Assembly (NCBI RefSeq): GCF_003025005.1
Contig: NZ_PVSS01000004.1
Span: forward strand, 62,001 to 126,000
Source of the DNA: Brumimicrobium mesophilum
Lineage (GTDB): Bacteria > Bacteroidota > Bacteroidia > Flavobacteriales_D > Crocinitomicaceae
Length of the DNA stretch: 64,000 nucleotides
Reading direction: 5' to 3'
The notes under the pieces were generated by a model. That model was not told where the DNA came from and ran no database searches. It worked only from the letters and a program-made list of their open reading frames with translations. Position numbers and translations under genes: made by a program. Numbering within the stretch: the stretch's first letter is position 1; the number at the start of each line of letters is the position of its first letter. Shown here one piece after another: positions 10,053 through 23,652 of this stretch.

Positions 10053-10097
10053 ACAACCGTGTGAATAAAGAACATTTGTTTTTTATTCACACGTTGT
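10053..10097. repeat. attC-like inverted repeat, site 0
   Basis: ACAACcGTGTGAATAAA pairs with TTTATTCACACGTTGT. This leaves one extrahelical base and a loop of about 12 bases, and the site ends in a GTTGTAG core. The shape (short arms carrying AAC...GTT ends and a bulged base) is that of a short integron attC. This is the leftmost such site found. Confidence 0.5.
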
Positions 10098-10124
10098 AGT
10101 GCATTTAAAAATAGAGCAATAAGA

Positions 10125-10646
10125 ATGAGTGAAATACATATAGTTTTTGGTCCACAAGGTGCTGGAAAATCCACCTATTCCAATAAAATATCGAAAGAAA
10201 CAAATGGTGTTCATTTATCCATTGATGATTGGATGTGGAAATTGTATGGTGATGACTTACCTAAGTCCATGAATTTGAGTTGGATTATGGAAAGAGTTGA
10301 AAGGTGCGAAAAACAAATTTGGTCTACTTCAGAAAAAATATCCAAGTCAGGTTCTATAGTAATTCTTGACCTTGGTTTTATGAAATTAGCAAAAAGAGAA
10401 CTTTTTAAATCTTTAGCTAAAAAACAAAATATCTCAACAAAATTACATTACGTTAAAGCTCATCATTCGATAAGAAGGAAACGTGTTTTAAACAGAAATA
10501 AAGAAAAGGGAGATACTTTTTCTTTCGAAGTCACACCAGGAATGTTTGATTTTATGGAAACTGAATTTCAAATTCCAACTGAAAAAGAACTTGTTAATGC
10601 TGTTGTAATTGATACGAATCCGGATTTAAGTAAAATTAATAGTTAA
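10125..10646 (+). CDS. P-loop ATP-binding kinase-like protein, paralogue of 3445-3933
   Basis: A 173-residue P-loop protein with Walker A G9-P-Q-G-A-G-K-S16, the shared LSIDDW segment, a Walker B-like strand IVILDLGF near residue 82 and an Arg-rich lid (RRKRVLNRNKEKGDTF). Its layout and many residues match the protein at 3445, including the tail motif EVTPGMFDFME. It is probably a small-molecule or nucleotide kinase of the AAA_33/zeta-toxin type; the substrate is unknown. It lies between attC-like sites 0 and 1, but the expected match between unit start and end is not clear here, so membership of the array is uncertain. Confidence 0.7.
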   Translation: MSEIHIVFGPQGAGKSTYSNKISKETNGVHLSIDDWMWKLYGDDLPKSMNLSWIMERVERCEKQIWSTSEKISKSGSIVILDLGFMKLAKRELFKSLAKKQNISTKLHYVKAHHSIRRKRVLNRNKEKGDTFSFEVTPGMFDFMETEFQIPTEKELVNAVVIDTNPDLSKINS

Positions 10647-10704
10647 TGATTTAGGATATTAATATGTGCGACAAAAATCAATCAGAACGAAAAAAAACTG
10701 CTTA

Positions 10705-11107
10705 AATAACTAAGCCTTCCTGTAAGTCAAAGTAAGCTCGCCAAACGCATGAATAAAACGATTGAATACCTTGTTTTTGAAAAATTATTTTGGTGTTTTA
10801 CGCTTTGATATTGAGCGTGTGTTTTTAAATGTTTGTAGGTTTTTTTATGCCTTTTCTGTTTATTCCTCTTCAATTTTCAATTGACAAAATTCATGCGTAA
10901 TTATTGCGGAGCCAAATCCCCTGCAAAAAACCTTAGCCGTAGAATTATTCGAATAATATACGCTTACGCGAATAATCTATTTTCATCTTCTTGCGATAAG
11001 CTATAGAAAATAGACGGAGTGACATGCCTTTGCATTGAGAATAATGCTATATTTGATGGAGAAGATACAGGCGATATATGCGCAATGCGCATAGCTAATT
11101 GTTGAAC
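10705..11107. repeat. attC-like spacer of the long type, site 1
   Basis: It starts AATAACTAAGCCTTC, shared with the left ends of sites 5 and 9, and ends in ATTGTTGAAC. Positions 10759-11103 are almost identical, and equal in length, to 15276-15620. No ORF of note is inside. It is proposed to be a recombination spacer of the cassette array; the left part is diverged from the other copies and has lost their clean hairpin. Confidence 0.5.
10759..11103. repeat. 345-bp direct repeat, copy 1
   Basis: This copy matches 15276-15620 with only scattered substitutions and no net length change. It runs from CGATT(T)GATACCTTG to AATTGTT. A shortened, diverged copy of the left end begins at 20806. It contains the internal dyad ATGCGCAATGCGCAT. 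Confidence 0.85.
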
Positions 11108-11141
11108 TAAACCGATTTTCAAATCGGTTTAGTTCAACAAT
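11098..11141. repeat. 44-bp perfect palindrome; ORF-less mini-unit of the array
   Basis: Arms 11098-11118 and 11121-11141 are exactly complementary (21 bases, ATTGTTGAACTAAACCGATT...), with a two-base spacer. In array terms it starts with a GTTGAAC core and ends with the complement GTTCAACAATAAC, like the gene-carrying units, but with no gene between. Confidence 0.7.
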
Positions 11142-11311
11142 AACTAAATTCAATTTGCATTTACAATTAAGTGGTTTACATATCTGAAAGTGACACCAAA
11201 ACATGGTTTAGAACAATAAAAATGATTAATTTGGCTAAACAATGCTTTGGCGGTTATCTATTTACATTGTGCAAAGTAATGCAAACAGTAATTTAGTCAA
11301 GCGTTGTACTC
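11137..11311. repeat. attC-like site 2
   Basis: The left boxes ACTAAATT (11143-11150) and TTTGCATT (11154-11161) pair exactly with AATGCAAA (11278-11285) and AATTTAGT (11290-11297). Unequal unpaired spacers separate the boxes, as in attC sites. The core GTTGTACTC is at 11303-11311. Confidence 0.65.
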
Positions 11312-11321
11312 AATTGCAAAA

Positions 11322-11930
11322 ATGAATAAAAGAATATTCAATATTATCTATATCCTTCTGTTTTCCTTTAGTGTTTGCGGTCAACAAAAACTTACAGGAA
11401 CAGTAATTGATCAGTCTAACTCTGAAGAAATTCCCTTCGCTAATGTTAGTATTGAATACAATGATACTATACAACAAACTCAAACAGATTTAAACGGGAA
11501 ATTTCATTTTAAAAATATTCAGTCTGAAAGAATAAAATTAATTATTAAATCGGCCGAATATTACAATTATGATTCAATTCTAATACTTAAACCTAGTACT
11601 CCAAATCTAACAATTGAATTAAGTAGTAATGAGGCGATTCTATATGAATTATTAAAATCCAATTTTAACAAAAAAGGTGCTTTAAAGGATATTAAGAATA
11701 ATGAAATCAAACTACTATTGCCTGGTGGTTTAATAGGTTCATCAGTAACACCAAGTGATACCATATTTGAGAATAAATATAAATTAACATTCATAAGCCA
11801 AGGTTGCGTAAGATTAAAGGGTGACAACGAAACCGAATACAACAAAGAAGTTTTCATGTATTTAGACAACAAATTTGGAACTTCTTGGAGGTTTGAAATA
11901 CGAAAAGATGTAATTGGAATAAATAACTGA
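11322..11930 (+). CDS. Secreted protein with carboxypeptidase-regulatory-like domain (cassette)
   Basis: A 202-residue protein with signal peptide (MNKRIFNIIYILLFSFSVCGQ) followed at residues about 22-105 by a CarboxypepD_reg-like beta-sandwich: KLTGTVIDQSNSEEIPFANVSI and TDLNGKFHFKNI. The remainder is unrecognised. Such domains are common at the N-terminus of Bacteroidota surface proteins; here the protein is short and may stand alone. The ATG at 11322 lies 11 bases after the GTTGTACTC core, and the stop codon overlaps the complementary GAGTACAAC at 11929. The gene is therefore exactly framed by the cassette ends. Confidence 0.75.
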   Translation: MNKRIFNIIYILLFSFSVCGQQKLTGTVIDQSNSEEIPFANVSIEYNDTIQQTQTDLNGKFHFKNIQSERIKLIIKSAEYYNYDSILILKPSTPNLTIELSSNEAILYELLKSNFNKKGALKDIKNNEIKLLLPGGLIGSSVTPSDTIFENKYKLTFISQGCVRLKGDNETEYNKEVFMYLDNKFGTSWRFEIRKDVIGINN

Positions 11931-12125
11931 GTACAACAGTTTGTATATTTCATAGGGCGTGCAGAGGTTTGTAAAGAGTCTGGGTTTCCTACTAGCACCG
12001 CCAAATTTACAATTTGGCTTTACAACAATTAAAATGTAAAAACAAAATTGTAAATTTGGCTTAGAGCAAACCTGAAGCAAAGCGCTTTTCAATGCCCTAC
12101 AAAACATACAAGAATCGTTGTGTGC
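11929..12125. repeat. attC-like site 3
   Basis: It begins GAGTACAAC, the exact complement of the GTTGTACTC that precedes the gene before it, and ends with the core GTTGTGTGC (12117-12125). Arms TTTGTAT...ATAGGGC...AGGTTTG near the left pair with CAAACCT...GCCCTAC...ATACAAG near the right. An internal dyad AAATTTACAATTT/AAATTGTAAATTT forms a second hairpin. Confidence 0.7.
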
Positions 12126-12149
12126 AACTAGAGAAGAACCTACTAAGTA

Positions 12150-14534
12150 ATGATATCTAACTTTTTAACATATTTTTGTTTTAGACACTTAGTAATATTC
12201 GTTTTTCTCGTGAATGGTTTTTTCTGCATAGCACAAACACCATTTAATAAGGACAATATTGATCCCACAATTCTTAATAATTTTATTCAGAAAGAATTAA
12301 ATTCATTTAGAAAAAGAGCAAAGGTTGATCCAGTAAAGACAGAGTTTGCTTTGTCTTTTGCCGCGGATGACCATTCTGCTTATATGTTAAAAAAGAAAAA
12401 ACTGACTCATAATCAGCGGCTCAAAGTAAAGAAGACACCTAAGAACAGAGTTGATTTCTATGGTGCTCAATTTAATAGTGTTGGAGAAAACGTTCAAGTG
12501 AATAATTTGAATCTACATTCTTCCGTGGATGACAAAAACTCTCCTCTAATCAATACCTACGAAAAACTAGCCGAAAAACTCGTTCAAGCTTGGAAAAACT
12601 CACCACCGCACTATGCGAATATGATTAACCCCAATTTCAAAACAAGTTTCACATCCGTTGCAATCGGTGGAAAGGGTGATATTTACGCTTGTCAGTTGTT
12701 CGGAGGTTCAAAATACAAGGATAAGTATGCTAAAGAACGTGATACAATTGAATTTAAGCCAGACCGGTCTTGGAGATGCTGGAGATGTAAAGTACGTGCT
12801 CCACAAGGCCAGATTATTATCTTAGAAGATAGCACTATTATTTACAAATTTATTTCTCCAAGAATGCTTTGGGGCTTACTTCCTCGACCATCAATAAACA
12901 GAACACGTATGCGTTTCTTCAATCCTTGGAGAGATGGATTAGCCGCTGATATAATCGTAAAGTCACAATATAAATGTGATAGTAATTCTTATCACAACGG
13001 ATTAAGTAATGTACGAGGACTACTTTTAGAACCTGTATATAAAAAAGATTATATGGGTATTCCGTTTAGTCATACAAAAATCGTTTTGGGTAAGGTGCCT
13101 AGTTTCATCAATGAAGATTTTGAAGTAAACTTAGTTGTTATCCAAAATAAACGTCCTTGTTCAAATACAATGTATAATGTTATGCCTTCTGATTTTGAGG
13201 TCAAAATTCCTATAAACTTTGCATTTCAACCTTCTGATGCAATTATAAAAGAATATCAAATAGACACGCTTTCCAAACAGTTATATTTTGACAAATCTGA
13301 TGTTACTCCAAACGACAGCATACTACCAGAAATCATAGGATTGGTAAATAAAAATAAAGAGATATTGACAAAAGTTAAAATAATTGGATTGGCAAGTATT
13401 GAGGGGACTGCTGAAAACAACGCCTCACTTTATGAAAAGAGAGCTGAGTATCTTCTTAAAGCAATAATGAATATCGGGATTGATTCTTCTCTCGTAGATG
13501 TTATTGCTACAGAAAACTTTAAGGACTTTAGGAAAGATATCATAGGCACCGATTATGAAAACCTTGGCGAATTCAACGACTCTTTATTGAAAGAAAAATT
13601 AGCAAAAAAAGAACTGAGTAATGAATTAGAATTCATTTTAAAAAATCATCGTTATGTAAATATTCAGCTTATCACACGACGTGAATACGATTTAAAATAT
13701 ACAGCAGAAAATGTAAACGAAAAATTGAAGCGTTCTATTGCAAGAAAAAACATCAATGAAAGTATTAAACTACAGCGTATACAATATGGATTAGCGTTGG
13801 CAGATAAAATGTCTTATGAAGAGATTGAATCTGTAGAAATCGTTTATGATAAAAAGAATTATAAACTTCTTCATAATCGTGCTTTGATGAAGTATTTAAC
13901 CGATACGATAACCATTGAATCATTGAAAGAATTTCGCACCCATCTTTCAGCATTAGACACCCTGAAAGAAAAGGATCGAGTAATAAACACATCTCTCGCA
14001 ATTATAGATTATTACCTATATACTTTAGGTGAGTATAAAAATAAAAAAGTAGCCTTTTACGATAAAATACGAAAATGGAAATACATAGACAGGGTTCAAC
14101 AAGCCAGAATATTATTAAATACAGCTACAAAAAGTGATTGGGGTCATTGGCTGGCTACAGGTTCACGTTCAGAAAGTAGTTATTATTTCAATAAAGTGAA
14201 ACGTTACATTCGACCAGCTAGACTAGATGTAGATAAAACATTCGAAATTGCTTCCTATTACACCTTCTTTTGGCAATATAAGTATGCATTAAATCTAACA
14301 AAAGGAAAAATAAACCAAACTACGAATCCAGAAGATTTAATTAACTTTTTGAAACTTATCCATCTTACAGATTTAAAACTCCCCCGGAATCAATATTTGA
14401 ACTACTTTGAAAAAATAAGACGCTATTCAGGTAATGAGTTTTGTAATTATTTTAATAATCCAGCTTTAAATTTTCAGATTTTAGATGACGAAGAAATAAA
14501 AAAAATATATTGTAAAGAGTGTGGAGATAATTAA
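12150..14534 (+). CDS. Secreted CAP-domain protein with OmpA-like segment (cassette)
   Basis: A 794-residue exported protein. After the signal peptide (to about residue 29), residues about 35-190 form a CAP/SCP-like domain: FIQKELNSFRKRAKVDPV, AADDHSAYML, LVQAWKNSPPHYANMINPNF and YACQLFGG. Residues about 370-520 resemble an OmpA-type peptidoglycan-binding fold (LYFDKSDVTPNDS, VKIIGLASIEGTAENNASLYEKRAEYL). The C-terminal part is helical and unrecognised. It probably acts in the periplasm or at the cell surface. The unit starts with core GTTGTGTGC and ends with ACACACAAC (one mismatch to the complement). It is a very large gene for a cassette. Confidence 0.75.
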   Translation: MISNFLTYFCFRHLVIFVFLVNGFFCIAQTPFNKDNIDPTILNNFIQKELNSFRKRAKVDPVKTEFALSFAADDHSAYMLKKKKLTHNQRLKVKKTPKNRVDFYGAQFNSVGENVQVNNLNLHSSVDDKNSPLINTYEKLAEKLVQAWKNSPPHYANMINPNFKTSFTSVAIGGKGDIYACQLFGGSKYKDKYAKERDTIEFKPDRSWRCWRCKVRAPQGQIIILEDSTIIYKFISPRMLWGLLPRPSINRTRMRFFNPWRDGLAADIIVKSQYKCDSNSYHNGLSNVRGLLLEPVYKKDYMGIPFSHTKIVLGKVPSFINEDFEVNLVVIQNKRPCSNTMYNVMPSDFEVKIPINFAFQPSDAIIKEYQIDTLSKQLYFDKSDVTPNDSILPEIIGLVNKNKEILTKVKIIGLASIEGTAENNASLYEKRAEYLLKAIMNIGIDSSLVDVIATENFKDFRKDIIGTDYENLGEFNDSLLKEKLAKKELSNELEFILKNHRYVNIQLITRREYDLKYTAENVNEKLKRSIARKNINESIKLQRIQYGLALADKMSYEEIESVEIVYDKKNYKLLHNRALMKYLTDTITIESLKEFRTHLSALDTLKEKDRVINTSLAIIDYYLYTLGEYKNKKVAFYDKIRKWKYIDRVQQARILLNTATKSDWGHWLATGSRSESSYYFNKVKRYIRPARLDVDKTFEIASYYTFFWQYKYALNLTKGKINQTTNPEDLINFLKLIHLTDLKLPRNQYLNYFEKIRRYSGNEFCNYFNNPALNFQILDDEEIKKIYCKECGDN

Positions 14535-14554
14535 TTCATCCAGACAAACAAGAT

Positions 14555-14685
14555 ACACACAACACAGCCTTTGACGGTCAGCCTGTAAAACTCTTCGATT
14601 TTTACATTCATGTAAAACTAAAAGTTTGTATCTTCGATAAAACATTTAGCTAACAGGCCGCCGCAAAGCCTCATCCGTTGTGCAT
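14555..14685. repeat. attC-like site 4 (131-bp type)
   Basis: It starts ACACACAACACAGCCTTTG and ends CGCAAAGCC...CCGTTGTGC. The outer arms AGCCTTTGACGGtcAGCCTGT and ACAGGCCGCCGCAAAGCCT are complementary with small bulges. The same family occurs as sites 6 and 8. The centre contains a second dyad around ATCGAAGA. Confidence 0.75.
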
Positions 14686-14705
14686 AATTTAAGAAAACTC
14701 ACGAA

Positions 14706-15185
14706 TTGAATAAAATAATAGGAATAATATTGACAATTACCCTTCTGATTTCTTGTGAAAATTTGGGAAAAACAGAAACGGAAAATAGTTCTGATTCTGA
14801 AATTAAATTCACTCAAACGGAATTAATAAAATCGGAATCAAATCAAACCGAATTGATTGCTCAAAAAATACTCGACCTTCCTAAACTTCAATGGATTTAT
14901 CATCCAGAAGTAAAAGAAAGATTACCCGTAAAAATTTTGGAATCTGAACTGGTTGACAAAAGTTTGAACTTAAATAAATTCGGACAAAAAGTTAGAATAT
15001 TATCAATATCGGAATTGGAAAACGAAGGAATTAAAGACTATGTAATATTTGATAAAATAAAAATCGGAAAAGATACAACTGATTTTGAACTTCACTATAA
15101 AATAGAAGGTGCAGGTTGTAGTGGAAAGTTCTTAAACGAAAATGGGAAATGGAAAATTATCGATTATTCTGTTTGGGAAAATTAA
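14706..15185 (+). CDS. Small lipoprotein of unknown function (cassette)
   Basis: A 159-residue lipoprotein starting at TTG 14706 (MNKIIGIILTITLLISCEN). The lipobox LLISC gives lipidation at Cys17, and no in-frame ATG exists upstream. The mature part is hydrophilic with a final domain LHYKIEGAGCSGKFLNENGKWKIIDYSVWEN; I do not recognise the family. The unit begins with core GTTGTGCAT (14677) and ends with ATGCACAA-TAAC (15192), an eight-base complementary pair framing the gene. Confidence 0.65.
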   Translation: MNKIIGIILTITLLISCENLGKTETENSSDSEIKFTQTELIKSESNQTELIAQKILDLPKLQWIYHPEVKERLPVKILESELVDKSLNLNKFGQKVRILSISELENEGIKDYVIFDKIKIGKDTTDFELHYKIEGAGCSGKFLNENGKWKIIDYSVWEN

Positions 15186-15191
15186 AAAACT

Positions 15192-15626
15192 ATGCACAAT
15201 AACTAAGTCTTCGGCGTGCCGATAGGCTAACGCTGAAGACCATGTTGACGGATCCGGATTTCCTTATGGGGAAAGCGATTTGATACCTTGTTTATGAAAA
15301 ATTATTTTGCTGATTTACGCTTTGATATTGAGCGTGTGTTTTTAAATGTTTGTAGGTTTTTTTATGCCTTTTCTGTTTATTCCTCTTCAATTTTCAATTG
15401 ACAAAATTCATGCGTAATTATTGCGGAGCCAAATCCCCTGCAAAAAACCTTAGACGTAGAATTATACGGATAATATACGCTTACGCGAATAATCTATTTA
15501 GATCTTCTTGCGATAAGCTATAGAAAATAGACGGAGTGACATGCCTTTGCATTGAGAATAATGCTATATTTGATGGAGAAGATACAGGCGATATATGCGC
15601 AATGCGCATAGCCAATTGTTAAGTGT
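15192..15626. repeat. attC-like spacer of the long type, site 5
   Basis: It begins ATGCACAATAACTAAG. A left hairpin GTCTTCGGCGT (15207-15217) pairs with ACGCTGAAGAC (15230-15240). Positions 15276-15620 are the second copy of the 345-bp repeat. The core at the right is GTTAAGTGT (15618-15626). The first 96 bases from 15198 are identical to those from 20728 (site 9). Confidence 0.65.
15276..15620. repeat. 345-bp direct repeat, copy 2
   Basis: It matches 10759-11103 at the same length with scattered substitutions. Both copies end at an ATTGTT core where a new unit starts. Confidence 0.85.
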
Positions 15627-15653
15627 AACTAGTTGAATCCTGCGTAAAGAAAC

Positions 15654-16658
15654 ATGAACATCAATAGAAACATAATTACAGTAATCATTTCGATCATCTT
15701 TGTAAGGTGTGTTTTTGGGCAAACTGAACTCCAAAACAAAAATATAGAGATGTATACGACCTTGCTAGAAGATAGTCAAGGATATCCAAATTGTGATTTG
15801 AAAGAGAAGGGTTCAAGTTTTATATTTAAAGTAATTAGTTCAACTGACACTACAATTAGCCCCGGAAGCACAATTGCCATAGCAATAATCTGTACGCAAA
15901 ATTTAATAGACGAACTATCTGTTGGTACATCCTATAATCTCAATTTGTCAAATAATCTTATTTATAACGGCTCTAAAGTAACCGATTTACTCCAAGATGG
16001 TGGGGAACTTATTCAACAACATAATGAGTCTAATAAAATATATTGGGTATTAGATTTAGATAAAATAAGACCCGATTTTATCAGAAGAGCAGAGTTAAAA
16101 CTAGGAATTGAGGATTTTCCAATGAAAAAGCTAAATACAAAAAAGCCTTTAAGCTCAAATTACATTGCTTCTTCTGATAACAGTGATAGAGAAGGTGAAA
16201 AAAGTGCTCTTATTAATGTTGCAAACTATCCATTCCCAATAAAAAATGAAACCTATTTACCCGATGGTGAGATAGGCCTTTTCGTAGATACAACAATTCA
16301 AGATTATTATGATAGTAAATATCAAGGTTATCGTATGTTTTTATTCAATAATAGCAACAAGACAGCTATCTTCTCTTCCAACGATAATAGAATACACTTA
16401 ATTGCACAAGCTCAGGATCAGAATGGAGTTTGGCGCGACATCGAAGTTTATGACTTTAGCGATTGCGCCCATAGTTACTATGATGTGATTCTTATACCTA
16501 AAAATCAATGGAGTTTTGTCGCCCCTTTACCAAGTGGTAAAAACCTGACCAAAATTCGAATGTCACTTCATTATACCGAAGGAGACTATAAAAAAATGAT
16601 ATATAGCAACGAATACGAAGGATATATTAATTGGGAACAAATAATTATTGAAGAATAA
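15654..16658 (+). CDS. Secreted protein of unknown function (cassette)
   Basis: A 334-residue exported protein with signal peptide MNINRNIITVIISIIFVRCVFGQ. The mature part looks beta-rich, with two halves (about 25-165 and 190-334); the second contains RMFLFNNSNKTAIFSSNDNRIHL and WSFVAPLPSGKNLTKIRMSL, suggesting a sandwich-type domain. I do not recognise a family. The unit starts with GTTAAGTGTA (15618) and ends with TACACATAAC (16659), the complement with one mismatch. The stop codon is directly next to the site. Confidence 0.65.
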   Translation: MNINRNIITVIISIIFVRCVFGQTELQNKNIEMYTTLLEDSQGYPNCDLKEKGSSFIFKVISSTDTTISPGSTIAIAIICTQNLIDELSVGTSYNLNLSNNLIYNGSKVTDLLQDGGELIQQHNESNKIYWVLDLDKIRPDFIRRAELKLGIEDFPMKKLNTKKPLSSNYIASSDNSDREGEKSALINVANYPFPIKNETYLPDGEIGLFVDTTIQDYYDSKYQGYRMFLFNNSNKTAIFSSNDNRIHLIAQAQDQNGVWRDIEVYDFSDCAHSYYDVILIPKNQWSFVAPLPSGKNLTKIRMSLHYTEGDYKKMIYSNEYEGYINWEQIIIEE

Positions 16659-16790
16659 TACACATAACACAGCCTTTGACGGTCAGCCTGTAAAACTCTT
16701 CGATTTATACATTCATGTATATCTAAATGTTTGTATCTTCGATAAAACATTTAACAAACAGGCCGCCGCAAAGCCCCAAACGTTATACTC
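16659..16790. repeat. attC-like site 6 (131-bp type)
   Basis: It has the same family and nearly the same sequence as sites 4 and 8: TACACATAACACAGCCTTTG ... ACAGGCCGCCGCAAAGCCCC. It ends with the core GTTATACTC (16782-16790). Confidence 0.75.
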
Positions 16791-16800
16791 AATTAAATAA

Positions 16801-17196
16801 ATGATACTCGATTGCTATAAAATATTGAAACAGATGGAACGCAGACCCGCAATGTGGGTTGGGGAAAATACGTTGAAAGCAATTCACTTGTATATATCAG
16901 GATATTACCATGCTCTTTTAGATGAGGGAGTTGTAACTGCTGCTCATACAGACGAACCTTTCTTCGACTGGGTAGCGGACAAATTAGGGTATTTTGAATC
17001 AACAGCTGGATGGGTAAATATGATAGTTGCAGAATCAATGGGGTTTGAATCAAAAAACATTAGTTGGGAGGAAGTATTTGAAACTCCAACAACAAAAGAG
17101 CAACACTCTATTTCAATTAATCGATTTTATGAGTTACTCGAAGAATTTAAAAAAGAAATGGAAGAACAGAGTATAACAAAACCTAAACTGCATTGA
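16801..17196 (+). CDS. Small cytosolic protein of unknown function (cassette)
   Basis: A 131-residue acidic protein with no signal peptide and probably mostly helical. It contains an ERRPAMWVGENTL segment near residues 14-26, a WVADKLGYF segment near residue 58, and a charged C-terminal helix. I do not recognise the family. ATG 16801 is 10 bases after the core GTTATACTC, and the matching GAGTATAAC (17169) lies inside the coding region. The last eight codons and the stop therefore belong to the recombination site. Confidence 0.65.
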   Translation: MILDCYKILKQMERRPAMWVGENTLKAIHLYISGYYHALLDEGVVTAAHTDEPFFDWVADKLGYFESTAGWVNMIVAESMGFESKNISWEEVFETPTTKEQHSISINRFYELLEEFKKEMEEQSITKPKLH

Positions 17197-17223
17197 AACG
17201 CAGTTTAGCCAAACGTTAAGTGT
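17169..17223. repeat. attC-like site 7 (short, 55 bp)
   Basis: This is the most canonical site of the array. GAGTATAAC is the exact complement of the GTTATACTC at the start of the unit. TAAACTGC (17184-17191) pairs with GCAGTTTA (17200-17207), with unpaired spacers AAAACC and GCCAAAC. The right core is GTTAAGTGT (17215-17223). Confidence 0.8.
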
Positions 17224-17276
17224 AATTGTATAGTACCAAATTCGTGAATAAACATGAATAAATTATATATCTAGTT

Positions 17277-18002
17277 ATGAAGATCATTTTTTTAATCACT
17301 TTATTTTTATTTTCTTTTTTAGATTTTAGTGTTTGTCAAACAACAGATTTATTCAATATCAATATCAAATTTGTTGACGAATCTAACAGTCCTATACATG
17401 GCTTACCAGTTAGTATAAGTTATACAGGTGCGCCTAGTTCTATGTATCATGTTACTAATGAGAAAGGTTTAATAAACGTAAATATCTCAATACTCAACCC
17501 TTTTTCACCAGACACACTTTTCGGATGTTATGTTGGGGTAGTCTATAATGATTACGAATTTTTATCTGAGACACTCACAATAGCTAAGGATACTTTGAAA
17601 GAAGACTTTACTAAAATTTACAAAATGCAAAAAATGCAGCCAGTGGAATTGGATGAAGAACAATTTAATAATTTAACTGGAATAATTTCGTTAGAAGACT
17701 TTGTCAAAAAGGATACACTTTTTTTATATCAATCTTTTATGATGCCTGCACCCATACCTATGGCATTAGGTTTTAACTCTATAGAGTTAATTAAACTATC
17801 AAAGAATACATTTAAGTTAGATCTCTATAGCTCAGAATCTTCCTACGCAAAACATCGAGTGGAAAAACTTATCCAAGTAAATCTAAAAAAAAGTAAAGTT
17901 ATAATAGAGATAGACGGTGTTAAATTCAAGTTTTTATTACAAACACTACAAAGTCAAACACAATATGGTTATACATACAGATATATGCTCATTCGAATGT
18001 AA
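17277..18002 (+). CDS. Secreted protein with Ig-like/regulatory-like N-terminal domain (cassette)
   Basis: A 241-residue exported protein (signal MKIIFLITLFLFSFLDFSVCQ). Residues about 28-100 look like a beta-sandwich of the Big/CarboxypepD_reg type (IKFVDESNSPIHGLPVSISYTG, VTNEKGLINVNISI). The C-terminal part (about 130-241) is a mixed domain with no recognised family. The unit begins with GTTAAGTGTA (17215) and ends with TACACTTAAC (18003), an exact ten-base complement. The stop codon is next to the site. Confidence 0.65.
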   Translation: MKIIFLITLFLFSFLDFSVCQTTDLFNINIKFVDESNSPIHGLPVSISYTGAPSSMYHVTNEKGLINVNISILNPFSPDTLFGCYVGVVYNDYEFLSETLTIAKDTLKEDFTKIYKMQKMQPVELDEEQFNNLTGIISLEDFVKKDTLFLYQSFMMPAPIPMALGFNSIELIKLSKNTFKLDLYSSESSYAKHRVEKLIQVNLKKSKVIIEIDGVKFKFLLQTLQSQTQYGYTYRYMLIRM

Positions 18003-18133
18003 TACACTTAACACAGCCTTTGCCGTCAGTATGTAAAACTCTTCGATTTTTACATTCATGCAAATCTAAAAGTTTGTATCTTCGATAAAACATATAGCAA
18101 ACAGGCCGCCGCAAAGCCTCAACCGTTATGCCC
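18003..18133. repeat. attC-like site 8 (131-bp type)
   Basis: TACACTTAACACAGCCTTTG ... ACAGGCCGCCGCAAAGCCTC ends with the core GTTATGCCC (18125-18133). It is the third copy of the 131-bp family, diverged in the left arm (CCGTCAGTATGT). Confidence 0.75.
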
Positions 18134-18156
18134 AAGCAAAATAAAGACCTACGATT

Positions 18157-20712
18157 ATGAACAGTAATGCAAAAGAATATTTAAAAGAATTTGCCACCTC
18201 TCAACCTGATTGGTTAAAAGCTCTTATTTATGATTCTATTGAATCAAATGGGAATATAACAAATGAGAGAAAAAACGAAATATTCAGCCATTTAACAAAT
18301 GGTACTAACTTAAATATTACAGAACCAAATCTAAGTAACGAAACTACTGATTCTGAGATTCGACTTACAAAACTAATTCATAAAAGTGGAGTAAATGCTT
18401 TAAAAGAAAACCAGACGATAAAGTTCTCTAACGATGTAACAATTTTATACGGTATGAATGGTGCTGGAAAAAGTAGTTATTTCAAAGTATTGAACGAAAT
18501 AGTTGGAGGAAATCAAAAGAAAGAAATATTACCAAATATTTATACTGAAACCTCAAAGCCAATTGAAATAGAACTAAGCTTTGAATCTCAAAATGGACAA
18601 AACCAAACAATAAATTGGAATGGAAGCAACCGCTCCCTCAATTTGCTTAATAAATGTAAAGTTTTTGACACTTCGTATTTAGAAGGTCTTTTGGCAACAA
18701 GGAAAGCTGACAGTACGCTTATCCAACCTTTAGGTTTAAATCTGTTTACTTATTTAGTTGGAGTAATTGATGATTTTAAGGACAAGGTAAATAACAAAGC
18801 CGATAAAAAAAGGCTTGAAAAACCAACATTAGAATTAAAACATTTAAGTGATGATATAAAAACATCTTTTGAAAGTCATCAGGTTTCCAGTAGTATTAAA
18901 TCACAAGTTGAAAAACTAGATACTTTTTCTGACGAAGATTCAGTGAAACTTAAAACCAAAAAAGGTGAGCTAAAAAACTTAAAGCAGATTAATATTCAAG
19001 ATAAAATTCGTCTTAAAAAGAATGATAAAGACGAATTAGAGAGCGTTAAAAGTCATATTGACAATGCTGTTAAAAAGATTTCTGGAGCATTAACAAGAAC
19101 ACAAAATTCCATTAAAACATATACAGAAAGTAAAGAGGCTAATAAGTTAGCGAAAAAGCAATTTGATATTTTATCAAATATCCCTGCCAACAATACGGAA
19201 GAATGGAAAGAGTTTATTAAAGCAGGAGAAAAATACACTTCAAAATTAGACTCCGCAGAAAAAGTTTGTGCTTATTGTCGTCAACCTTTGGCAGATGATA
19301 ATTCCATTAATTTGGTTCAATCATATGGGAATTTCCTTAAAGACGAATCGGAACAAAAATTGAATGGAGCGATTCAAAATTTGGAATCACTTAAACAGGA
19401 ACTTAATGGAATTTCGGTTAAGCTGAAAATAAAAGAAAACATAGAAGCGATTTTAAAAGAAACTAAAATAGCGGATTCGGACGAAACACTTAATAAACTC
19501 ATAGGTAATATCATTTCTAATCTTGAAAAAGGAAAAGAAGAATTAATTACTGCTATAGATAGCAAAAGTTCTAAAGATTTTGAAATTGAATTTAAGAACA
19601 AGGATATTGTTAATTTAAAACTTTCTGCAATAATTGATAGCTTACAAGCTGAAATCGTAAAATTTGAGAATGATAATAAGGACAAGAAAACTCAAATAGA
19701 CAAACTTGAAAAAGAAATAAAAGGCTTTTTAGAAAATGAATCAATTAGCCAACAGAAAGAAAATATTGAGAAATGGTTTAGTGTTGATTCTGTTGAGAAA
19801 GAGTTAAGACAAAAATCAAAAAAAATAAATACAAAAAAAGTCAGTGATCTTTCAAAAACAGCTCATAATGATTTATTGACAGAAACGTTAAAAACCGGTT
19901 TTACCGATGAATTGACAGGTTTAGGTTTTAATAAACTTGAAGTAAAGCTCGAAAATGCAAGAGGACAGAAAGGAACTTCGAATACAAAATTAACTCTTAC
20001 CAAAAATAAGGATATAAAAGCTGTTTTAAGTGAAGGAGAACAAAAAGCTGTCGCTTTAGCTCTCTTTGTTGCAGAAGCTAAAATTCAAAAAAGTATCAAT
20101 CCAATAATTTTAGATGACCCAGTTAATAGTCTTGACCATAAAATTGCTGGAAATTTTACCAATAGACTATTACAGTTAGAGAATCAAATTATTCTCTTTA
20201 ATCACAATAAGTTATTCCTTGAAGCTTTTGAAACATCAAAAGAAAATCATATTTGTAAAACTATTGATTCTGCTTGTAATAATTCGAGAGGTAAACACAT
20301 TAGAGTTTATCTTGTCAACAACGAAGGTAAAAATTCAAAAGGAGTATTGACAAATTACAAATTGAACAAAGCTTCAAATCATATTCGTGATGCGAAAAGA
20401 TTACTAAACGGTTCTCCATTTGAAGACGGCTTAAAAGTCGCAAATTTGCTTAGGAAGGCAGTTGAATGTACAATTGATGAAAAGATATTCAATAACCAAG
20501 TACCAACTAAGAATAGTACAAAAAACAATCGTATTAATTGGGACGAATTGAAAAAACTAAATAATGATGAACTTACAATAAACTCATTAAAAAACATTCA
20601 CAGTAGAGTCTCTGGTGGAGAAATGCATAATGGGACTGAAAACGAAGAAAATCCTATTGAGATAGATGAATTCAATACGATGATTTCTGATATTGAACAG
20701 TTATTAAATTGA
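18157..20712 (+). CDS. RloC/PrrC-like ATPase with zinc hook and HEPN-type C-terminus (cassette)
   Basis: An 851-residue AAA_13-type protein. Walker A GMNGAGKSS is at about residues 99-107. Long coiled-coil arms (about 200-365 and 390-580) flank a Rad50-like zinc-hook motif C371-A-Y-C374. The ABC signature SEGEQKAVALALF is at about 625 and the Walker B/D-loop LDDPVNSLDH at about 651. The last 110 residues contain R817-x6-H824 (RVSGGEMH), matching the HEPN ribonuclease RX4-6H motif. Known RloC and PrrC proteins of this plan cleave tRNA anticodon loops and abort phage infection; the same role is inferred here. The unit runs from core GTTATGCCC (18125) to GGGCATAA-TAAC (20722), so it is a complete cassette. 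Confidence 0.8.
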   Translation: MNSNAKEYLKEFATSQPDWLKALIYDSIESNGNITNERKNEIFSHLTNGTNLNITEPNLSNETTDSEIRLTKLIHKSGVNALKENQTIKFSNDVTILYGMNGAGKSSYFKVLNEIVGGNQKKEILPNIYTETSKPIEIELSFESQNGQNQTINWNGSNRSLNLLNKCKVFDTSYLEGLLATRKADSTLIQPLGLNLFTYLVGVIDDFKDKVNNKADKKRLEKPTLELKHLSDDIKTSFESHQVSSSIKSQVEKLDTFSDEDSVKLKTKKGELKNLKQINIQDKIRLKKNDKDELESVKSHIDNAVKKISGALTRTQNSIKTYTESKEANKLAKKQFDILSNIPANNTEEWKEFIKAGEKYTSKLDSAEKVCAYCRQPLADDNSINLVQSYGNFLKDESEQKLNGAIQNLESLKQELNGISVKLKIKENIEAILKETKIADSDETLNKLIGNIISNLEKGKEELITAIDSKSSKDFEIEFKNKDIVNLKLSAIIDSLQAEIVKFENDNKDKKTQIDKLEKEIKGFLENESISQQKENIEKWFSVDSVEKELRQKSKKINTKKVSDLSKTAHNDLLTETLKTGFTDELTGLGFNKLEVKLENARGQKGTSNTKLTLTKNKDIKAVLSEGEQKAVALALFVAEAKIQKSINPIILDDPVNSLDHKIAGNFTNRLLQLENQIILFNHNKLFLEAFETSKENHICKTIDSACNNSRGKHIRVYLVNNEGKNSKGVLTNYKLNKASNHIRDAKRLLNGSPFEDGLKVANLLRKAVECTIDEKIFNNQVPTKNSTKNNRINWDELKKLNNDELTINSLKNIHSRVSGGEMHNGTENEENPIEIDEFNTMISDIEQLLN

Positions 20713-20721
20713 ACAATGCCA

Positions 20722-21333
20722 GGGCATAATAACTAAGTCTTCGGCGTGCCGATAGGCTAACGCTGAAGACCATGTTGACGGATCCGGATTTCCTTATGGG
20801 GAAAGCGATTTGATACCTTGTTTTTGAAAAAATATTTTAGTGTGTTACGCTTTGATTATGAGCGTGCATTTCGAATTTAAGTTGGTTGATTACAATTCTT
20901 TGTTCTTAAAAAGGAGTATTTACCAGATGTTTCATTGTTTTTATGTTTATTTCACTACTTATAAGCCATAACTTCTCCATTACGTTAATATCGTTGCATT
21001 TATTCTGTTGATTTATTGATACTTAAAGTTTTTCTCCAGTTTTCTGGTGGACCTCTTCCATCAAAAAGCAGAACAGTGATTAATTTTCCTTTTTTACACG
21101 TTGGACATCTCCTGTTGTGCGTTGGGTTTTCCTTAATAATTTCGGACGTATTTTGTTTATTCAATAACTTTTGAAGTTCGGGAAGCTTTACCTTTTTCCA
21201 ACTGCTGCTTAATATTCCAAAATGCCTTATTCGAGTAAAAGCTTGTTGGTTTTATAAATGAGATTATTGTTATATTTGGTAGAAATACTACAGTTTGGTA
21301 GTAGACTATTGTCGAAAGCCGATTGTTAAGTGC
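20722..21333. repeat. attC-like spacer of the long type, site 9, with insertion
   Basis: It begins GGGCATAATAAC. The first 96 bases from 20728 are identical to site 5, including the hairpin GTCTTCGGCGT/ACGCTGAAGAC (20737-20747 with 20760-20770). After about 20870 the sequence departs from the 345-bp repeat and contains a transposase remnant on the minus strand. The right end is GATTGTTAAGTGC with the core at 21325-21333. Confidence 0.55.
21000..21240 (-). pseudogene. IS91-type (Y2) transposase, C-terminal remnant
   Basis: The minus strand reads TRIRHFGILSSSWKKVKLPE..., then RRCPTCKKGKLITVLLFDGR and GPPENW, to a stop at 21002-21000. The RIRHFG(I/F)L segment and the Cys-x2-Cys followed by an RGPP run are hallmarks of the end of IS91-family transposases. 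The catalytic Y2 region and the N-terminus are missing, with no start codon. It is a fossil insertion inside spacer 9. Confidence 0.6.
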
Positions 21334-21345
21334 AACAACAACAAA

Positions 21346-22062
21346 ATGAAAATACCTAAGATTAAAGGAATAATTGACCGTAGAATCCTTATCAATTACC
21401 AAGTTGACAAGGAAGTTTTGGATAATTATTTACCTGAGCCGTTTAAACCAAAACTAGTTAACGGAAAAGGTATTGCCGGAATTTGTCTGATAAGGCTAAA
21501 ACAAATAAGACCTAAAGGTTTTCCCAAGCAAATCGGAATATCATCTGAAAATGGAGCCCATAGAATTGCTGTTGAATGGACTGAGAATGGTCAATTAAAG
21601 GAAGGTGTTTACATTCCAAGAAGAGATACTTCTTCCAAATTGAACGCTTTGGCAGGTGGAACTATTTTTCCAGGAGTTCATCACTTTGCTAAGTTCACTG
21701 TAAAGGAATCTAATGGTAATTATAACGTTGCATTTATTAGCGAGGACGAAACATCCCTTTCAATTATCGCTAAAGAAACTGATGTTTGGAATGACCAAAG
21801 TATATTTGATAATTTGGAATGTGTATCCCAGTTTTTTGAAGCTGGATCTGTTGGATATTCACCGCATAAAACCGAATTTGATGGACTTGAACTTAAAGCA
21901 TATAATTGGAAAGTTTCTATGCTTAAAGTGACAAAAGTTAATTCTAGCTTTTTCGAAGATTTGACAATATTTCCTAAAGGTTCAGTGGTTTTTGATAATG
22001 CTTTATTAATGAAAGATATTGAACATGAGTGGATTGGGTTACCTAGGATAAAAGGCATTTAA
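21346..22062 (+). CDS. DUF2071 (YqjF-like) family protein (cassette)
   Basis: A 238-residue cytosolic protein matching DUF2071/COG3361: IDRRILINYQVDKEVLDNYL, PKLVNGKGIAGICLIRLKQI, GVYIPRRDTSSKLNALAGG and PGVHHFAKF. The fold is related to acetoacetate decarboxylase; the function is not established. The Met at 21346 (MKIPKIKG) is preferred over upstream non-ATG codons. It lies 12 bases after the core GTTAAGTGC (21325), and the stop codon lies within GCATTTAAC (22055), which is the complement with one mismatch. Confidence 0.8.
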   Translation: MKIPKIKGIIDRRILINYQVDKEVLDNYLPEPFKPKLVNGKGIAGICLIRLKQIRPKGFPKQIGISSENGAHRIAVEWTENGQLKEGVYIPRRDTSSKLNALAGGTIFPGVHHFAKFTVKESNGNYNVAFISEDETSLSIIAKETDVWNDQSIFDNLECVSQFFEAGSVGYSPHKTEFDGLELKAYNWKVSMLKVTKVNSSFFEDLTIFPKGSVVFDNALLMKDIEHEWIGLPRIKGI

Positions 22063-22249
22063 CATTACTTATGTTTCTTTGGAGAAGTTGCGTAGAACTA
22101 GAAAATTTGAATTGTATTTGACAGAGCACCAAATAACCGATTTGGCTTTCAAGAAAATAAAAACAAAATGCGGTGAGTTGGCTTGTGGAAATTTGGAAAA
22201 TCCGTAACTTTCTAATTCGCCTACGAAAACAAACATTTACCGTTAGCAT
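22055..22249. repeat. attC-like site 10
   Basis: It begins GCATTTAAC (overlapping the stop codon of the previous gene) and ends with the core GTTAGCAT (22242-22249). Arms GTAGAACTAGAAAATT and AACTTTCTAATTCGCCTAC pair with a bulge. It is less regular than the other sites. Confidence 0.5.
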
Positions 22250-22281
22250 TAGTTATGGAATTATTTTGAAGGTTGAATCTT

Positions 22282-22863
22282 ATGAATATGAAAACAATAC
22301 ACATCTTGATAATCAGTAGCATTTTTGTTTCACTTACAGCTTGTATGAAAAGAAATATTGCAGGAGATTATTCTGCAAAAGTATTTCATTACCCCAAGGG
22401 AATGAATCATGAAATACTGGAAGAAAAAAAATCAAGGGTATCTGTTGATCCAAATGGTGTCGCAAGCATAAAAACTGAGACGATTTCTTTTCATTTGATA
22501 CCTGAAAGAAATGAGAGTATCACAAAATTTTTCATGTACATTGATAAAAATCTGAATATTTATGCCACATATTGTGCAGGAGGTCTAATCCCAAGCACAG
22601 AATACCAAGGAAAAGGTAAATTAGATCATGGCATGCTCTATGTCGATTTTTTCAGAAAAGATATTTTCGGTTTTAATCGACAAAAAATGGATTCAATTCT
22701 ATTCGATAAACCTTTCCAATTGAAATTTTCGGTTGAGAAGGATGAATCATGGAAAAATATGGGTATTGAATATTTTCCAACAAGACAAAAATTGAATATT
22801 AAAGACAGTATTTGGAGTGTCCATTATTTATTTAATATACAAGATAATACTCACACCATGTAA
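22282..22863 (+). CDS. Lipoprotein of unknown function (cassette)
   Basis: A 193-residue lipoprotein; the lipobox SLTAC gives a mature start at Cys in CMKRNIAGDYSAKVFHYPKG. The ATG at 22282 or 22288 fits the signal peptide. The rest looks beta-rich (IAGDYSAKV, SIKTETISFHLI, LKFSVEKDESWKNMG), possibly a lipocalin-like sandwich, but no family is recognised. It lies between sites 10 and 11. The expected complementarity between unit start and end is weak here. Confidence 0.6.
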   Translation: MNMKTIHILIISSIFVSLTACMKRNIAGDYSAKVFHYPKGMNHEILEEKKSRVSVDPNGVASIKTETISFHLIPERNESITKFFMYIDKNLNIYATYCAGGLIPSTEYQGKGKLDHGMLYVDFFRKDIFGFNRQKMDSILFDKPFQLKFSVEKDESWKNMGIEYFPTRQKLNIKDSIWSVHYLFNIQDNTHTM

Positions 22864-22900
22864 AAAGCATTAAAACGACATTTTACACTAAACGTTATTA
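22859..22900. repeat. Possible degenerate attC-like site 11
   Basis: TGTAAAA (22859-22865) pairs with TTTTACA (22881-22887), and the core GTTATTA follows at 22894-22900, eight bases before the next ATG. It is short, and the left inverse core is not evident. Confidence 0.3.
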
Positions 22901-22907
22901 AAAAACG

Positions 22908-23609
22908 ATGAAAATGAAATTTTGGTTTCCACTTGTACTTACACTATTATGGAACGCTTGCCTTTCTCAGTCAATAGATATTGATTACTTTGGGAGGTTT
23001 AATAAATCGAACAATTTTGCATCAGAGGATAGTTTAATTCTTTCTCTTAAAAGTGACTTCTCCTTTACATTGGAGTTCAATGACCCTTATGTTTGTGCTG
23101 CTTATACTGACTCTAAACGATTTTGCACTGGAACATATTCAAAGAGAGGTGACACTTTAAGCTTAAAAAGCAAATCGTCTGAAAGTAACTTTTACATAAT
23201 GCAAGAATCGAACGTTGAGAACGTACATTCAGACTCTATTTTCATTATACTTTCACCATCAAAAAGCGTGCATTTAAAGGGCCCACGACTATACGTCTCT
23301 GTTAATTCAGTTCCAATCGGAGAATATCAAATTGGAGATACAATTACCATTGACAAAGCGACCTCAGATATTAGGATATTCAGCAAATGCCTGTACGATA
23401 TGTATTGGAAAATCACCCTGAATGGAAGCTACAAACCTAGAGTTTACCACCTTCAATTAAATCTCAAAGCCGCAGAGGAAAACCTAAGTTTGGAAAATAT
23501 CAAATTTCTTTTAAAAGACGGTGAATTGCTTATGATGGAAGACTTCTATTTCATTGATATCTTAGAAAACCGATTAAAGGAAAAACAACCGCCAATAATC
23601 AAGCCCTAA
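22908..23609 (+). CDS. Secreted protein of unknown function (cassette)
   Basis: A 233-residue exported protein (signal MKMKFWFPLVLTLLWNACLSQ). The region FGRFNKSNNFASEDSLILSLKSDFSFTLEF followed by CAAYTDSKRFCTGTYSKRGDTLSLKSK resembles the lipocalin-like beta strands found in many Bacteroidota secreted proteins. The C-terminal half is unrecognised. It starts eight bases after the core GTTATTA. Its stop codon is the start of TAATAAAC (23607), close to the complement TAATAAC, so it may be the last cassette of the array. Confidence 0.6.
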   Translation: MKMKFWFPLVLTLLWNACLSQSIDIDYFGRFNKSNNFASEDSLILSLKSDFSFTLEFNDPYVCAAYTDSKRFCTGTYSKRGDTLSLKSKSSESNFYIMQESNVENVHSDSIFIILSPSKSVHLKGPRLYVSVNSVPIGEYQIGDTITIDKATSDIRIFSKCLYDMYWKITLNGSYKPRVYHLQLNLKAAEENLSLENIKFLLKDGELLMMEDFYFIDILENRLKEKQPPIIKP

Positions 23610-23652
23610 TAAACACAAATAAACCTTGATTTCATTGTGCTTGGTGTTGAAC
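23607..23652. repeat. Candidate attC-like site 12 (right end of array)
   Basis: TAATAAACACAA ... TTGTGCTTGGTGTT, with the GTTGAAC core at 23646-23652. AACAC/GTGTT and CACAA/TTGTG can pair. It is weak, but in the expected place. Confidence 0.35.

Follow-up and report, generated by a model that had tools for sequence, protein, structure and literature searches.

The closest described systems are integrons, which comprise an integrase (IntI), an insertion site (attI) and sites of the attC type. Surveys treat the IntI-specific domain as the defining feature (PMC9668308, drawn on, like the other papers cited here, for part of its text) and detect integrons by this domain together with attC models (PMC9668308, PMC9024848). 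In integrons of Treponema, transcription of the integrase gene runs towards attI, along the cassettes (PMC3607928). Bacteroidota are listed in a review among the integron-bearing phyla (PMC8618304), and one complete integron in Bacteroidetes proper, that of Salinibacter ruber M1, is named in the part of the IntegronFinder 2.0 paper drawn on here (PMC9024848). The locus considered here is a stretch of 64,000 nucleotides (nt) from Brumimicrobium mesophilum, positions 62,001-126,000 of contig C34 (NZ_PVSS01000004.1; assembly of 3.88 Mb in 89 contigs), hereafter the window. It contains an array of gene-bearing units which is very probably an integrase-less cluster of mobile cassettes, part of an integron-like system that occurs in many Bacteroidota and is run by a Xer-like integrase.

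Inspection of the window sequence over 9.0-28.6 kb allowed twelve unit starts to be set (10093, 11101, 11303, 12117, 14677, 15618, 16782, 17215, 18125, 21325, 22242, and 22894). A preliminary description had counted about ten units with one plus-strand gene each; the plus-strand open reading frames (ORFs) are indeed present, though the added unit at 11101 has none. Its observation that each unit starts with the reverse complement of its own end holds well above chance: with at most one mismatch over 9 nt, ten of the twelve units contain the reverse complement of their own start (mean of 2.3 when these 9-nt tags are shuffled among the units), and four contain it exactly (shuffled mean 0.5). Neither value was reached in 5000 shuffles. 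Two of the ten are weak (15618 and 22894), as their best match lies inside the ORF, away from the unit end; in unit 15618, the pair near 16658 (TACACATAAC) proposed in the preliminary description is present too, with a mismatch. Of the 11 separators, six bear out the imperfect inverted repeats described between the units: their bottom strand folds from end to end, with z-scores of -2.3 to -6.1. The separators are linked to one another by repeat families, and separator-like DNA, partly short, occurs on seven other contigs of the genome and elsewhere on C34.

No integrase gene was found in the window, as had been noted before: none of the six PF00589 matches of the genome falls on C34, and a profile search of the genome found no canonical IntI over the TIGR02249 cut-off. 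The lack of any recombinase elsewhere in the genome had been named as evidence that would speak against a cassette array; a fitting integrase was found, incomplete in the assembly. Its N-terminal part (207 residues) is cut by the end of contig C6 before attI would be reached, a second copy is split over two frames at the end of contig C11, and these two contig ends have their last 25 bases in common. Two further copies are 3' remnants. The genome also encodes XerC-like and XerD-like proteins as well as an IS91-associated Xer-like enzyme.

With the C6 fragment as query, matches at E ≤1e-10 were obtained in 72 of 99 genomes, including its own. Twelve integrase loci were fetched, ten with unbroken frames of 286-378 residues, one with an inner TAG and one broken. 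A scan of named genomes yielded at least 596 stretches with the pattern, at least 570 of them relatives, and the best 80 were kept as the locus set (L numbers below). The titles of these 80 name Bacteroidota or unclassified relatives, save for Ignavibacteria (L114), L098, and L123; the latter two integrase-carrying contigs, titled Bifidobacterium breve and Rhizobium sp., respectively, are probably mis-binned Bacteroidota DNA. Another genome of the same genus (G007) has twelve additional copies of a relative that is about 300 residues long and 31-33% identical to the query fragment. On a plasmid of Chryseobacterium sp. SNU WT5, the integrase, annotated as 'site-specific tyrosine recombinase/integron integrase', is accompanied by attI and attC-like sites.

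Six of six new proteins scored 195-220 bits with TIGR02249, the NCBIfam model of integron integrases, below its cut-off of 265, while the XerA model NF040815 gave 208-224 bits, with its cut-off of 220 reached by two of the six. The IntI-specific additional domain (I-patch) is absent: compared with VchIntIA (PDB ID: 2A3V), the insertion region is missing, 23 residues of the new integrase standing opposite 65 (residues 182-246). The spacing between the GLRR-type motif and HxLRHS is 88 in all 55 measurable proteins (out of 79), against 129 in 15 of the 16 measurable canonical IntI (out of 20; the exception is an 819-residue frame). Likewise, KGxKxR and LRHS are 61 residues apart in 42 of 42 measurable new proteins (of 78) and 102 apart in 17 of 17 measurable canonical ones (of 20); relative to canonical IntI, 41 residues are missing between the motifs in each new protein that could be measured. 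An additional domain of about 60 residues is present at the N-terminus of most clade members. A tree with 57 rows gave a support of 100/99 both to the new clade (34) and to IntI (19); the four Xer, IS91-associated and tnpF rows form long branches and the root is arbitrary. In the AlphaFold2 model (predicted local distance difference test score 83, predicted template modelling score 0.51), structural comparison ranks XerA at the top. Residues R201, H291, R294, H317, and Y326, which we take to be the catalytic ones, are invariant across 40 integrase proteins. Judged by these sequences, the integrase has a Xer-like catalytic core without the IntI insertion and belongs to a clade separate from IntI.

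A relative of this integrase, tnpF, was also seen about 190 nt upstream of tet(X3) in pHH1107 (L168, 4795-5010). The interval between the two genes contains a palindrome and a GTT resembling the separator motif GCGCAATGCGCATAGC described below; the own-tag test was negative there.

Beside the integrase lies a conserved attI-like site, established in the related loci. The site, TATAAACAA followed directly by GTTR, was found after the integrase stop in 70 of the 72 loci with at least 125 nt there, the pattern not being found in L111 and L148. Two more sites in shorter stretches bring the number identified to 72; 56 of them lie 101-108 nt past the stop, and the consensus reads TATAaAcaA before the core and GTTa from it. 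The same rule matches 9 of 1440 random upstream windows. Identity breaks at the core: in 44 locus pairs that are at least 0.8 identical over the 60 nt before GTT, the mean identity after GTT is 0.34. The integrase lies upstream of its own attI and points towards both attI and the co-directional cassettes. Of 80 loci, 27 have a contig end within 1 kb on the downstream side of the integrase and 3 on the upstream side, which is expected if the arrays are repetitive or variable.

The cassettes behind attI obey the same end rule as the window units. Among the 52 loci that extend 1 kb or more past attI, 41 have the reverse complement of the first cassette's 9-nt start within 4 kb (1.2 expected with swapped tags); the count is 21 of 52 at 10 nt (0.36 expected) and 0 of 52 at 11 nt. 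Tracing of unit chains yielded 181 units in the 52 loci, some of them spurious where chains end; from control starts placed upstream, 0.44 units were obtained per start, and two or more units were reached by 23 of the 240 control chains. As a control of the tag rule, own pairs numbered 198 in the new arrays against 42 expected, and 83 against 14 in 20 loci with canonical IntI, on the side of the array, compared with 48 against 36 in DNA upstream of the new integrase and 25 against 13 downstream of canonical intI. Position 11 of the cassette start is A in 151 of the 153 exact-paired unit starts of the new arrays, and in 22 of 83 for the canonical ones.

Strictly defined attC-like sites numbered 99, from 29 loci, with a median length of 136 nt (range 75-139). 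The two ends of one site match each other at a mean of 5.8 of 9 positions, so full complementarity belongs to the cassette and not to the site. In 50 non-redundant sites, 22 consensus pairs were recognized, 17 of them with changes on both sides; 93.4% of the cells are paired, against 67.5% in shuffled and 32-50% in slid alignments, and the covariation score is 0.638, against 0.168 and at most 0.132, respectively. The hairpins show an asymmetric unpaired spacer and a bulge, presumably corresponding to the unpaired central spacer and the extrahelical bases. Thirty-nine sites could be fixed by tags alone, free of folding (82 tested, 12 ambiguous); 38 of the 39 are 128-139 nt long, and 38 also occur in the folded set. 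In 27 rows chosen without folding, 93.1% of cells are paired against 67.2%.

A model of these sites, R1, whose training set included neither the window nor a Brumimicrobium locus, matches the window at 16660-16790, 18004-18133, 14555-14685, and 17169-17223, on the strand expected for plus-strand cassettes, and all four matches fall on the edges given by the unit-end rule. In 15 sources from the same genome, it found 17 matches at E ≤1, 12 of them at E <0.01, and in another 17 sources, some of them Brumimicrobium relatives, 33 at E ≤0.1, with 32 on the expected strand. Over 77 related loci (training sites included), 210 of 211 matches lie downstream of the integrase, the exception being in L106, and 207 lie on the expected strand and four on the other.

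Site and integrase also coincide in a sample of 296 genomes from the phylum, each at least 90% complete, 73 of them from the class or nearer by listing order; since few candidates were scored per genome, the counts are lower bounds. R1 matches occur in 149 of the 296, the integrase profile A2 (E 1e-50) in 99 and IntI over the cut-off in 85; the corresponding numbers among the 73 are 57, 42, and 1, and the sole IntI-positive genome there has no attC match. The attC matches are associated with the A2 profile (odds ratio 14, p 3e-20) and show no association with IntI (odds ratio 0.6, p 0.054). Outside the class, 84 of 223 sampled genomes have canonical IntI over the cut-off, a number far above the one complete Bacteroidetes integron that the cited part of the IntegronFinder 2.0 paper names, although the phylum limits may differ.

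Gain or exchange of single units with exact edges at G/TT, which the preliminary description had asked for, was found in the related loci, where three cassettes are common to different loci with both edges at GTT. Unit 2 of L101 and L123 agree over 709 of 709 nt (99.7%), with identities of 0.35 and 0.30 outside and integrases about 70% alike. Unit 2 of L107 likewise aligns with L138 along 709 of 709 nt at 97.3%, between flanks with identities of 0.59 and 0.33 and with integrases about 74% alike; the left flank, with 0.59, is a site of the same attC-like family. Unit 3 of L158 aligns with L134 along 585 of 594 nt at 97.1% identity, which drops to 0.31 on either side, and the two integrases are about 96% alike. 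Altogether, 9 of 165 units have a match covering at least 45% in another locus; beyond the three that pass the edge test on both sides, unit 4 of L153 passes it against L185 at the left edge only, and the remaining matches are partial.

These features suggest a mechanism in which the integrase would bind the folded bottom strand of the ~136-nt attC-like hairpin, cut at a point within the GTT core and join attC to attI or to another attC. Cutting at this core would make a cassette start with the right half and end with the left half of its own site. It would be this integrase that moves the cassettes, and those of the window might have been moved by it or might still be moving. A further possibility, put forward tentatively and held somewhat short of probable, is that the system is a second, independently evolved integron of Bacteroidota, in which a Xer-like integrase without the IntI domain gained recognition of folded single-stranded sites, so that cassette capture arose twice. 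Perhaps this recognition was gained through the extra N-terminal domain.

Several observations weigh against a mobile cassette cluster run by the Xer-like integrase. Recombination by the system would follow from sequence comparison, none having been observed. Every integrase copy of the Brumimicrobium genome is incomplete in the assembly (C6 cut, C11 split, two remnants). The array is degenerate at its unit ends, two of twelve failing the end rule (10093 with three mismatches and 22242 with two) and two more being weak, and 5 of 11 separators (10694-11109, 15192-15626, 20722-21333, 22055-22250, and 22846-22902) have no end-to-end fold. The R1 matches in the window are weak (E 9e-4, 0.014, 0.025, and 0.12), three of the four representing one repeat family, and neighbouring pairs of R1 matches on other contigs of the genome keep the end rule in 3 of 7 cases. 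Folding was used in part in choosing the sites for R1, so the pair counts are biased towards pairing, to which the fold-free subset is an answer only in part. The excess of own pairs is alike on both strands (198 against 42 and 198 against 46); as this measure is nearly symmetrical, the direction of the arrays rests on attI and the model. Among the phylum genomes, 63 of 149 with attC matches lack the A2 profile at E 1e-50 and 13 of 99 with the profile lack attC matches, and this threshold also catches other Xer-like enzymes, such as the IS91-associated one of the Brumimicrobium genome.

Some of these points favour other explanations. Were the separators immobile intergenic hairpins (terminators or elements like repetitive extragenic palindromes), with the complementarity of unit ends having another cause, the degeneracy of several window separators would be expected, and no movement was observed at the window itself, where the flanking genes were not found in nine congeners, leaving no empty site to compare. 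The cassettes common to different contigs have exact edges, however, and the complementarity is a property of the cassette that stops at 10 nt, which makes this the remotest of the explanations considered. Genes can also be exchanged at dif-like sites by XerC and XerD, as in pdif modules, and the Xer-like core of the integrase, along with the XerC-like and XerD-like genes of the genome, would suit such a swapping of flanked genes by the housekeeping pair. Covarying hairpins of about 136 nt and a dedicated integrase gene with attI at the head of the arrays do not, although no search was aimed at dif-like sites, and the explanation is only marginally less far-fetched than immobile repeats.

Slightly more plausible, though still very improbable, is a canonical integron in which IntI, present or past, moves the cassettes and the Xer-like integrase is a bystander. 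Canonical IntI is well represented in the phylum (85 of 296 genomes), and some canonical IntI have sites nearby that R1 weakly recognizes (6 matches at E ≤0.1 over 20 loci, 364 kb), which indicates that the two kinds of site share features. On the other hand, the Brumimicrobium genome has no IntI over the cut-off, the conserved attI adjoins the Xer-like integrase, and 57 of the 73 genomes from the class or nearer have attC matches while IntI is confined to one that has none. The preliminary description had left three readings open: an array with its intI nearby but out of view, an integrase-less cluster of attC sites, known as CALIN, or another recombination system working on the same principle. 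The last two in combination are supported, and a canonical intI over the cut-off was not found in this genome. The window holds a CALIN-like cassette cluster with some sites of the Bacteroidota attC-like family, and the integrase that accompanies this family is of a clade separate from IntI.

The units of the window, all on the plus strand, differ in content and in the quality of their ends. An exact own pair is present in the ORF-less unit 1b (11101-11302), which has a palindrome from GTTGAACTA, as well as in unit 2 (11303-12116; ORF 11304-11930, CarboxypepD_reg-like), unit 6 (16782-17214; ORF 16801-17196), and unit 7 (17215-18124; ORF 17277-18002). One mismatch is found in unit 3 (12117-14676; ORF 12150-14534, CAP domain), unit 4 (14677-15617; ORF 14706-15185), unit 8 (18125-21324), and unit 9 (21325-22241; ORF to 22062, DUF2071). 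The gene of unit 8 (18157-20712) encodes an AAA ATPase that matches the PADLOC candidate defence family PDC-S06 with 1156 bits. The end rule fails in unit 1 (10093-11100; ORF 10125-10646, AAA_33 kinase-like, with a weak Zeta_toxin match below the cut-off) and unit 10 (22242-22893; ORF 22273-22863), and the weak pairs are those of unit 5 (15618-16781; ORF 15654-16658) and the doubtful unit 11 (22894-23652; ORF 22908-23609). Near-perfect short palindromes that start from GTT, lack an ORF and head an array or unit were seen at 13137-13174 of L169, in L135 and at 11101-11138 of the window.

The attC-like sites, assigned to the minus strand, are those at 11130-11311 (z -2.6, 30 nt paired end to end), 11929-12125 (z -5.2), 14555-14685 (z -6.1; R1 E 0.025), 16660-16790 (z -5.9; R1 E 9.3e-4), and 18004-18133 (z -2.3; R1 E 0.014), together with a short one at 17169-17223 (z -3.2; R1 E 0.12). 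On its left, the array opens with a short hairpin (10053-10101; z -4.9, 19 pairs end to end) before the first GTT, at 10093. The unfolded separators comprise three long ones (10694-11109, 15192-15626, and 20722-21333) and those at 22055-22250 (z 0.6) and 22846-22902. A motif around GCGCAATGCGCATAGC stands at the right end of the first two long separators, just before GTT, and recurs after the 3' remnants of an integrase gene on contig C6, near 100.4 kb and 106.9 kb (L032). It could be a former attI belonging to a second lineage of integrases.

No description of this system was found in open-access titles and abstracts, subscription papers and preprints being outside the search. Standard searches probably miss it because its integrase lacks the part that defines integrons. 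If the system is confirmed, a large route of gene exchange has been overlooked (attC-like sites in 57 of 73 genomes at class level and 149 of 296 in the phylum), the need for the IntI insertion in the recombination of folded attC sites becomes directly testable, and new recombinases are on offer along with a pointer to the source pool of cassettes. In all tested features except the defining domain and the model score of its enzyme, the system is integron-like. It shares with integrons the cassette array, the single insertion site and unit ends exchanged at GTT, as well as folded sites whose sequence varies while the structure is kept, in the window for 6 of 11 separators; as in the Treponema type, its integrase gene points towards attI, the same way as the cassettes. 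The missing IntI domain and the score below the cut-off set it apart from canonical integrons, as do the separate clade, the extra N-terminal domain of most of its integrases and the near-fixed A at position 11 of the cassette starts. The window array resembles a CALIN in its several attC-like sites (four matched by R1) without an adjacent integrase, and differs from one in that these sites belong to a Bacteroidota attC-like family and that some separators are degenerate. From the Xer recombinases (XerA, XerC, XerD, and XerH), the system differs by its dedicated attI and cassette array, and most of its integrases by their N-terminal extension.

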